Shown one piece after another: positions 19,857 to 22,666 of a DNA stretch of 58,389 nucleotides. Source of the stretch: Vicinamibacteria bacterium. GTDB taxonomy: Bacteria; Acidobacteriota; Vicinamibacteria; Fen-336. The translations under genes and the position numbers were made by a program. The notes beneath the pieces are model-generated. The model saw only the letters and a list, made by a program, of their open reading frames with translations. It searched no databases and was not told where the DNA came from. Positions within the stretch are counted from its first letter, which is position 1; every line of letters begins with the position of its first letter. Location: assembly GCA_016934575.1 (NCBI GenBank), contig JAFGSN010000183.1, positions 1-58,389 of the forward strand, in the 5' to 3' direction.

Positions 19857-19924
19857 GCCTTTCCTCCCGTTCGACCCTCCATCCTACTCCATCTATTCCG
19901 CTTGATGACGCCCTTGGATTGTGG

Positions 19925-19933
19925 TGCTAAAAT
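19925..19933 (+). promoter_or_regulatory. Candidate extended -10 upstream of the YfiR-like/diguanylate cyclase operon
   Basis: TGCTAAAAT fits an extended -10 (TGnTAAAAT), about 94 bases before the TTG start at 20027. No clear -35 at the usual distance. Confidence 0.35.
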
Positions 19934-20026
19934 TTACACAAAGAGTCGCAGGCTGCCGTCATGATCGCCATGGAGAACAGCCCGGCTCGACGCTGTTGCC
20001 CTCTCTCAGTGACGGAGGTGGGTGTT

Positions 20027-20554
20027 TTGACGAGCCGGTCGACGGTACGGACCTGGTGGAACGTTTCTGCGTTTTTTCGCGCCCGCCTGTTTCATTTCGC
20101 GATCACGACCGTTCTTGTCTTCGTCCTCGTCGGCCCGTCTCGCGCGGCCGAGCGCGGCGTCGCTGATCCGGCCGATCCGAGCATCGAGCGGCTCATGGAC
20201 GTCGAAGCGACCTCGGCGTCCCGTAAAGAGCAGCATGTCGGGGAGACGGCCATCGTCGCGCGTTGTCGTTCCGTGAAAGAGCTTGGGCCGTGTCGCGGCT
20301 TGTTCATCTCCGAGCCCGAGTACGACATGCCGCCGGACATCTTCGAGGCGCTCGCGGGGCGCGGCCCGCGCGCGGTCGGCGACGCGCCGCGTTTCGCGGC
20401 TCGCGGAGGCGTCATCGGCTTCACGATGGAGCGTAATCGAGTTCGTTTCGAGATCGACATCGAGGCCGCCGCGCGCGCCAAAAACAGAATCAGCTCCCGT
20501 CTCCTGCGCCTGGCGCGCGTTGCTCGGGACGAGCCGGGAGACGAGGGGGGCTGA
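20027..20554 (+). CDS. Chimeric TonB-receptor-leader / YfiR (DUF4154) C-terminal protein
   Basis: From TTG 20027 (GGAGG eight bases before) the protein is 175 residues; an ATG at 19961 has no such site. It has a signal peptide (RLFHFAITTVLVFVLVGPSRAA). Residues from DPSIERLMDVEATSASRKEQ to ETAI match the pre-plug N-terminus of TonB-dependent receptors (DLSLEELMNIEVTS type). From VARCRSVKELGPCRGLFIS to FEIDIEAAARAKNRISSRLLRLARV the sequence matches the C-terminal half of YfiR. The N-terminal half of YfiR is missing. I infer an in-frame deletion joining a receptor gene to its neighbour yfiR. YfiR normally represses the diguanylate cyclase encoded next door. Confidence 0.7.
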   Translation: MTSRSTVRTWWNVSAFFRARLFHFAITTVLVFVLVGPSRAAERGVADPADPSIERLMDVEATSASRKEQHVGETAIVARCRSVKELGPCRGLFISEPEYDMPPDIFEALAGRGPRAVGDAPRFAARGGVIGFTMERNRVRFEIDIEAAARAKNRISSRLLRLARVARDEPGDEGG

Positions 20555-22666
20555 ATGCGCGCCTTCCGCGACTTTTCGATTCGTTCCAAGCTGACGCTCA
20601 TCGCCATGTTGACGAACGGCGCCGTGCTGCTGCTCTCCGTCACCGCCTTTGTCGGGTACGAGCTGATCGCCTTCCGGGCGGCCATGAAGCAAAACATCGA
20701 GACGCTCGCGGATGTCGTCGGATCGAACAGCACGGCGGCCCTGACCTTCAACGATCAGGCCGCCGCCGAAGCGACGCTCGGAGCGTTGCGCGTCGCGAAG
20801 CACGTCATCGCCGCGGCGATCTTCACGAAGGACGGACGGCTCTTCGCGACCTATCTGCGATCCGATCTTACGGCGATGCCGGAGCTCGACCGGCATGCCG
20901 GCGGTCACGTTTTCGAGAGGGAATCGCTGAGCGTGTGCCGCTCGATCATGCTCGACGGCGAAAGAATCGGCGCCGTGAGCGTGCGTTCGGATCTGACGGC
21001 CATGGGCTCGCGTCTCATGCGCTATGCGTGGGTCGTGCTGGCCGTGCTGGCCGCTTCCTCGCTCCTGACGTTGCTGATTTCCGCGCGCCTGCAATCCTTG
21101 ATCTCGCGGCCCATCTCTCATCTGGCCGAGACTGCTCGCCGCTTTTCGATCGACAAGGACTTCGCGGCGCGCGCCCAAAAGCGCGGCCAGGACGAAATCG
21201 GCGTGCTCATCGACGGCTTCAACGAGATGCTCGAGCAAATCGCCGAGAGCAACGTGGTCTTGCAGCTCACCCACGACGATCTGGAGCGACGCGTGCAGGA
21301 GCGCACGCTTGAGCTGCGCCAGGAGATCACGGCGCGCAAGCGCGTTGAAGGGACCATTCGTCGTCTCGCGTATCACGACGCCTTGACCGGGCTGCCCAAC
21401 CGCCTGCTCTTCGGCGATCGCCTGTCGCAGGCCCTGGCGCGCGCCGAGCGCAGTCGGATTATGCTGGCGGTGCTCTTCCTTGATCTGGATCGTTTCAAGA
21501 TGATCAACGACCTGCTCGGCCACGCCGTCGGCGACAAGGCGCTGTGCGAGATCGGGCGGCGCCTGCTGCAGAGCCTGCGGATCGAGGATACGGTGGCGCG
21601 ACTGGGCGGCGACGAGTTCCTCGTCTTGCTGCCCGCCGTGGACGCGATGCGTGACGCGACGTTGGTGGCCGAGAAAATACTGCGCGCGTTTCAGCCCGCG
21701 GTCGTGATCGAGGGTCATCCGCTGAACATCACGGTGAGCATCGGTATCTCGGTCTTCCCGTTGCACGGACGCGACGGAGAGACGCTGATCAAGAACGCGG
21801 ATCTGGCGCTTTACCACGCCAAGGAGCGCGGACGAAACAACTGGCAGCTTTTCGTCACGAACAATGAGGAGACGGCTCTCGATCGACTGTCGCTGGCGAA
21901 CGACCTGCGCCAGGCGATCGATCGCGGGCAGCTCCGTCTCCATTTCCAGCCGCAGATCGACGCGCGCACGAACGAGATCGTGTCCGTCGAGGCCCTGCTG
22001 CGATGGGCGCATCCCGAGCGCGGTTTGCTGGATCCGCGCGCCTTTATCGGACTGGCGGAGGAGATCGGAGTCATAATGCCGATCGGCGAGTGGGTTTTGC
22101 GGGCGGCCTGTCGCCAGGGCCGCGTCTGGCGCGAATCCGGATTGTCCGCCCTGCGACTGGCCGTCAATGTCTCCGTTCGCCATTTTCGAAAAGCGAGCTT
22201 CGAGGAGACGCTCGAACGAATCGCGGACGAGGAAAAATTCGACCTCGGGTCGCTCGAGGTGGAGATCACCGAAAGCGTATTCATGGAGAACATCGCCGAG
22301 GCGGCGCGCACGATGCAGGCGCTGAAGAAGCGCCAAGTGTCGCTCGTCATCGACGGGTTCGGCACCGGCTACTCGTCGCTCAGTCATCTGCGGCGTTTGC
22401 CGGTGGATGCCCTGAAAATCGCTCAATCGTTTGTGAGCGCGACTCCGGAGGACGCCGACAACGTCGCCATCGTGACGTTGATCATTGCCATGGCTCATAA
22501 TCTCGGTCTCAAAGTCGTCGCCGTGGGCGTCGAGAAAGAGACCCAGCGTGATTTTCTGCTCTCCAGCCATTGCGATCTCATGCAGGGCCATCTGTTCGGG
22601 CCGCCGATGTCGATCGAAGACGTGACTCGCTTGCTGCAACGTCAACTTGACGATTCGCGAACGTGA
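20555..22666 (+). CDS. CHASE8-HAMP-GGDEF-EAL protein, YfiN/TpbB-like diguanylate cyclase
   Basis: The 703-residue inner-membrane protein has two membrane segments (about 12-35 and 152-175) bracketing a CHASE8 periplasmic domain (TLADVVGSNSTAALTFND). It continues with HAMP and a short coiled coil (205-270), GGDEF and EAL. The active site GGDEF at 351-355 and the inhibitory RxxD (RIED, five residues before it) are intact, so it should make c-di-GMP. The EAL domain keeps EAL (478-480) and Asp600 but has Gly601 for the second Asp of DDFGTG, Ala623 for Asp in KID and Val657 for the first Glu of EGVE, so it is probably not a working phosphodiesterase. It starts right after the YfiR-like stop (TGAATG). 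Confidence 0.9.
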   Translation: MRAFRDFSIRSKLTLIAMLTNGAVLLLSVTAFVGYELIAFRAAMKQNIETLADVVGSNSTAALTFNDQAAAEATLGALRVAKHVIAAAIFTKDGRLFATYLRSDLTAMPELDRHAGGHVFERESLSVCRSIMLDGERIGAVSVRSDLTAMGSRLMRYAWVVLAVLAASSLLTLLISARLQSLISRPISHLAETARRFSIDKDFAARAQKRGQDEIGVLIDGFNEMLEQIAESNVVLQLTHDDLERRVQERTLELRQEITARKRVEGTIRRLAYHDALTGLPNRLLFGDRLSQALARAERSRIMLAVLFLDLDRFKMINDLLGHAVGDKALCEIGRRLLQSLRIEDTVARLGGDEFLVLLPAVDAMRDATLVAEKILRAFQPAVVIEGHPLNITVSIGISVFPLHGRDGETLIKNADLALYHAKERGRNNWQLFVTNNEETALDRLSLANDLRQAIDRGQLRLHFQPQIDARTNEIVSVEALLRWAHPERGLLDPRAFIGLAEEIGVIMPIGEWVLRAACRQGRVWRESGLSALRLAVNVSVRHFRKASFEETLERIADEEKFDLGSLEVEITESVFMENIAEAARTMQALKKRQVSLVIDGFGTGYSSLSHLRRLPVDALKIAQSFVSATPEDADNVAIVTLIIAMAHNLGLKVVAVGVEKETQRDFLLSSHCDLMQGHLFGPPMSIEDVTRLLQRQLDDSRT

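Follow-up and report, generated by a model that had tools for sequence, protein, structure and literature searches.

A half-YfiR protein with a TonB-dependent receptor leader, apparently formed by in-frame deletion, precedes a CHASE8 cyclase gene in a Vicinamibacteria bacterium

Introduction

A known relative of the locus reported here is the YfiBNR (TpbB) system of Pseudomonas aeruginosa (structures 4yn7, 4yn9, 4zhu and 5eb1), in which the gene for a periplasmic DUF4154 repressor, YfiR, adjoins that of a CHASE8/PAS-HAMP-GGDEF enzyme. In this organism, yfi mutations including loss of function of YfiR derepress the cyclase YfiN, and misfolding of YfiR activates it (PMC3375315, PMC4655355). The surface of YfiR proposed to bind YfiN is mainly C-terminal and is formed by helices 3 and 4 and strand 7 (PMC4655355, PMC3375315), with a further contribution of helix 1 and of the loop between helix 1 and strand 1 (PMC4655355). 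On the side of YfiN, the AAVVF patch is the proposed contact with YfiR.

A second arrangement, the TOL_0244/TOL_0243 module, is defined in NCBIfam by the models NF053590 (TonB_dep_TOL0244), NF053591 (YfiR_like_TOL0243) and NF053592 (HK_near_YfiR_like). No paper describing this receptor version of the module was found in the open-access papers searched; the NCBI models show that it is recognised. What is new is the fusion by deletion, the module and the two protein families being known already. Here, we describe this fusion in a stretch of 58,389 nucleotides (the window) of a Vicinamibacteria bacterium (GCA_016934575.1, contig JAFGSN010000183.1).

Results

The fusion gene and the enzyme encoded downstream of it occupy the following positions of the window:

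19905..19933, + strand: sigma-70-like promoter match, the sole match upstream of the fusion gene and not evidence of function
20014..20019, + strand: Shine-Dalgarno sequence GGAGGT, 7 nt before the TTG at 20027, read from the sequence
20027..20554, + strand: fusion gene encoding 175 aa, in which a TonB-dependent receptor leader continues in frame into the second half of YfiR
20027..20146, + strand: putative signal peptide, hydrophobic FAITTVLVFVLVG followed by SRA-AE, read from the translation
20147..20251, + strand: receptor-derived leader, ...SIERLMDVEATSASRKEQHVGETA, scoring 23.1 bits against the N-terminal profile of TonB-dependent receptors
20245..20257, + strand: estimated deletion junction, placed from the end of the receptor alignment, the start of the YfiR homology and the spacing in relatives
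20252..20521, + strand: second half of DUF4154/YfiR, strand 2 to C-terminal helix (Pfam and NCBIfam)
20555..22666, + strand: CHASE8-HAMP-GGDEF-EAL gene, 703 aa (Pfam, NCBIfam and alignment)

The open reading frame at 20027-20554 starts with TTG, is translated into 175 residues with no internal stop and ends directly at the start of the downstream gene (TGAATG). A further in-frame ATG is present upstream of the TTG, at 19961. The promoter match agrees with the consensus at 9 of 12 positions and carries a TG before the second hexamer, shuffled sequences giving a mean of 0.0 in the same consensus scan. By its sequence, the N-terminus of the protein (residues 1 to about 40) resembles a signal peptide.

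To characterise the segment that follows, a profile was built from 24 receptor N-termini taken from YfiR-containing loci and their genomes (nearly all from the loci). Residues 18-75 of the fusion matched this profile with 23.1 bits, and the alignment ended exactly at ...RKEQHVGETA75, whereas the highest score reached by 2000 versions in which residues 41-75 were shuffled was 9.2 bits. About 35 residues, ending in SIERLMDVEATSASRKEQHVGETA, therefore show homology to the N-terminal segment that precedes the plug in TonB-dependent receptors linked to YfiR. No Pfam match to a plug or a barrel was found in the fusion frame, in which the pre-plug leader alone is left of a TonB-dependent receptor of the TOL_0244 family. 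The preliminary description of this DNA placed the receptor N-terminus right after the signal peptide; the homology stands, but about 11 residues separate the cleavage site from the conserved segment.

The remainder of the protein belongs to YfiR. Residues 66-164 match positions 45-143 of the 143 positions of Pfam DUF4154 (E 6.2e-18; score 65.7 bits, cutoff 24.9 bits) and positions 48-147 of 150 of NF053591, with 61.3 bits, below the cutoff of 125 set for full-length proteins; the fusion therefore falls short of a whole DUF4154 domain (about 143 positions). In the alignment, the YfiR homology begins at approximately I76, and none of the K-A-A, F, F and W-P residues that hardly vary in the first half of YfiR is present, in agreement with the earlier proposal that half of a YfiR follows the receptor leader. 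The significant Pfam match indicates that the C-terminal half, with most of the proposed sensor-binding surface, is present. As judged from the alignment, this half is moderately conserved: of 19 columns with a conservation of at least 75%, 13 are kept, the main departure being three adjacent residues where the nearly invariant V-L-T is replaced by P-R-A. Its leave-one-out score of 80.6 bits lies towards the low end of the values of 34 full-length relatives (62.6-121 bits), and its GC3 of 0.80 is coding-like. With a score inside the family range and this composition, the DUF4154 half is not strongly decayed.

The sensor domain of the downstream enzyme scored 223.7 bits against NF053592, over the cutoff of 194, and is thus a YfiR-associated sensor according to this model. 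Both the GGDEF motif (ARLGGDEF) and the RIED I-site are intact, and an AALTF segment is kept where YfiN has its AAVVF patch. By contrast, the EAL motifs (21900-22620) are degenerate, with IDGFG, KIA and AVGVE in place of the DDFG, KID and AEGVE that are retained in the four closest full-length relatives of the enzyme (loci L059-L062). The phosphodiesterase domain is probably inactive and the enzyme a cyclase. In a sensor-domain tree, the window protein is placed with none of the groups; its GGDEF-EAL effector may have arrived with the module or have replaced another one later.

In relatives of the same class, the genes encoding the receptor and full-length YfiR are separate; they often adjoin each other and a CHASE8-HAMP signalling gene. 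Receptors and YfiR proteins of relatives and one of their kinases pass the cutoffs of NF053590, NF053591 and NF053592, respectively. When nine third genes of relatives were scanned with Pfam, seven encoded a histidine kinase and two a GGDEF or GGDEF-EAL protein. An ancestral receptor-yfiR-cyclase order had been suggested for the window; the order receptor, yfiR, signalling gene is indeed that of the relatives, but the third gene is mostly a CHASE8 histidine kinase. An intact set with the effector type of the window (receptor, full yfiR and CHASE8-GGDEF-EAL) is found in L062, a locus of a Nitrospiraceae metagenome-assembled genome. One receptor-YfiR pair is in this way accompanied by varied CHASE8 outputs, histidine kinase, hybrid kinase, GGDEF or GGDEF-EAL (L040, L041 and L166 compared with L044, L062 and the window), a pattern that, from gene content, is one of output swapping behind one sensor.

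The spacing of these genes gives the size of the missing DNA. In the phylum, the starts of the receptor and YfiR matches are 2.0-2.5 kb apart in 29 pairs with an upstream receptor and about 0.1 kb apart in the window, which is why approximately 2.1 kb, corresponding to the receptor body and the first half of YfiR, is estimated to be missing. Since the receptor match stops at residue 75, YfiR begins at about I76 and the first-half YfiR residues are absent, the junction is placed at about 20251/20252, within the interval 20245-20265 named earlier. The nearest genomes compared are of the same family and not of the same genus, so that the parental sequence is not readable and the deletion is inferred. 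The relatives' spacing and the uninterrupted frame bear out the earlier view of a frame-keeping loss of the receptor body and of half of YfiR.

To search for the same fusion elsewhere, a profile of artificial leader-plus-half-YfiR chimeras was compared with 396 phylum genomes. Both halves were found in one frame in the window only (165 bits); elsewhere, the leader belongs to frames as long as a receptor (in most cases about 640-970 aa) and the YfiR matches lie in frames of their own. The fusion recurred in none of 193 class genomes and none of the 396 phylum genomes, and a search of genome contigs retrieved no close relatives of the fusion protein. The in-frame fusion is therefore unique among the genomes searched. 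The same short protein in relatives without a receptor would have counted against a deletion, and none was found in the 396 phylum genomes. One apparent longer match (contig C163 of genome G478) proved to be a normal YfiR with a chance extension. A candidate for a second N-terminally truncated YfiR (L183 in G085) was also set aside, its Pfam match starting at position 17, which corresponds to a smaller change.

Loss on the receptor side was observed at other loci. In L164 (5305-6643 of contig C20, genome G124), a 249-aa receptor stub directly precedes an intact yfiR, with a spacing of 829 bp; this stub consists of the leader joined to a piece of the barrel, followed by an early end, and by its sequence represents a separate case of receptor loss within this class. 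In L059 (2864-7073, from a Nitrospirae metagenome-assembled genome), the receptor frame is broken and shorter than in intact sets, and a stop separates the signal peptide of yfiR from the YfiR domain, sequencing errors being possible; the CHASE8-GGDEF-EAL gene downstream is intact. L060 and L061 encode CHASE8-GGDEF-EAL proteins 42-43% identical to that of the window, and neither YfiR nor a receptor was found just upstream of these genes. Receptor-side loss with retention of the signalling gene is therefore not unique to the window.

The genome that carries the fusion contains a second, intact set, different from that of the window, on contig C212 (L036, 4392-9707). It encodes a receptor of 787 aa, a divergent YfiR-like protein of 201 aa (28 bits to DUF4154) and a CHASE8 hybrid histidine kinase.

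To assess the consequence of the deletion for the YfiR fold, structures of the fusion and of a full YfiR relative were predicted. In the latter, a helix (residues 35-48), a strand (62-68) and a second helix (73-81) precede the part kept in the fusion; according to this model, the deletion takes out helix 1, strand 1 and helix 2. The mean pLDDT was 68 for the fusion compared to 89 for the full relative. The fusion model matched the YfiR structure 4yn9 with a TM-score of 0.60 and put the hydrophobic signal peptide, a segment that would be cleaved, in the position of strand 1. The prediction was rejected as proof that the half folds, as the input alignment had forced the signal peptide into strand 1. 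Deprived of helix 1, strand 1 and helix 2, the mature remnant would probably be unable to fold as a stable YfiR.

Discussion

We consider it likely that a single in-frame deletion within the module left a remnant without a stable YfiR fold and a cyclase free of receptor and YfiR control. The starting point would have been a three-gene outer-membrane sensing module composed of a TonB-dependent receptor, a periplasmic YfiR-like repressor and a CHASE8 sensor enzyme. One deletion of about 2.1 kb may then have joined codon 75 of the receptor gene to the middle of yfiR, so that the start and export signals of the receptor gene would now drive synthesis of a 175-aa protein made of the leader and the C-terminal half of YfiR, the stop of which still abuts the cyclase start. 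Once its signal peptide is cleaved, the remnant would lack the elements needed for a stable YfiR fold. If it cannot fold as YfiR, the cyclase would no longer be under receptor/YfiR control; by analogy with YfiN of P. aeruginosa after loss of YfiR function, it could be derepressed and limited by its own I-site, or else it could work through another input. The cyclase is thus probably uncoupled from its receptor, and the fusion has the look of a deletion scar that arose once, in a module of known type. Against the reading as a scar, the YfiR half, which is not strongly decayed, and the kept AALTF segment could reflect either a recent event or continued function.

Continued function could take the form of a working half-repressor, in which the exported half, with its CHASE8 contact surface, still or newly modulates the cyclase in the absence of the receptor. 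The mainly C-terminal location of the proposed YfiN-binding surface, the maintenance of frame, signal peptide, start signals and coding composition, and the retrieval of YfiR (4yn9) by the fusion model are all compatible with this reading. However, helix 1 and the helix 1-strand 1 loop, which are part of the binding surface, are gone, the confidence of the model is low compared to the full relative and its strand 1 is occupied by a cleavable segment placed there by the alignment, V-L-T has changed to P-R-A, and no second genome among those of the class and the phylum carries the fusion. We therefore regard a working half-repressor as unlikely. Less likely still, the leader and the half YfiR may constitute a new minimal periplasmic regulator of a CHASE8 cyclase, produced in one deletion step and kept for binding to the sensor.

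The junction might also be an artefact, two separate places having been joined wrongly in the contig of an organism whose receptor gene and yfiR are intact. The assembly is a draft of 247 contigs (98.4% complete, 4.4% contaminated) that comes without reads, and the junction is found in no second genome. A chimeric contig normally leaves the missing pieces elsewhere in the assembly. Yet the other contigs of this assembly yielded neither the missing N-terminal half of YfiR nor the missing receptor body: its two DUF4154 matches are the fusion and the set on C212, and its best matches to a partner receptor are 23-32% identical. Moreover, no second copy of the junction DNA, which could have misled the assembler, is present, and the genes on either side of the join, which is in frame, would be expected to be adjacent. 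These observations make misassembly improbable, and sequence comparison favours a genuine loss of about 2.1 kb that kept the frame.

That the frame now serves mainly as a translated leader by which ribosomes are coupled to the cyclase gene, with no role for its peptide, appears very improbable. In this reading, the frame would have been kept because out-of-frame deletions would lower cyclase expression. The abutting stop and start and the intact GGDEF motif and I-site downstream agree with such coupling, but the cyclase could have a ribosome-binding site of its own. Finally, an N-terminus native to a divergent short YfiR-like family, to which the placement of the hydrophobic signal segment at strand 1 in the fold model could point, can be virtually dismissed, as the leader scores far above its shuffled versions, all full-length YfiR relatives checked have a complete N-terminal half and no other genome searched encodes the short form.

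If the deletion is real, it is a natural one by which a sensor-enzyme module has been deprived of its input at the outer membrane and of half its repressor, with enzyme and frame left intact. Such a case would illustrate how receptors are lost from these modules and would offer a natural test of the portion of a YfiR-like protein required to restrain a CHASE8 enzyme; otherwise, it is an ordinary deletion scar.

Among described systems, the TOL_0244/TOL_0243 module shares with the window its gene neighbourhood and a sensor domain that scores over the NF053592 cutoff. It differs in that the intact receptor-repressor pair is cut in the window to one 175-aa fusion, and in that the effector of the window is a GGDEF-EAL protein and that of the module a histidine kinase. 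Compared to YfiBNR, the window has the same juxtaposition of a DUF4154 gene and a CHASE8 enzyme gene, the retained half aligning, weakly by sequence, to residues 110-185 of YfiR. Unlike YfiBNR, in which the outer-membrane partner is the OmpA-like lipoprotein YfiB, the relatives of the window have a TonB-dependent receptor, and the window itself lacks half of YfiR and has an added EAL domain. The closest counterpart is L062 (Nitrospiraceae bacterium UBA6905), whose CHASE8-HAMP-GGDEF-EAL protein is 41% identical to that of the window over nearly its full length; there, the receptor (cut at the contig edge) and the full YfiR are separate and free of deletion, and the EAL motifs are conserved.
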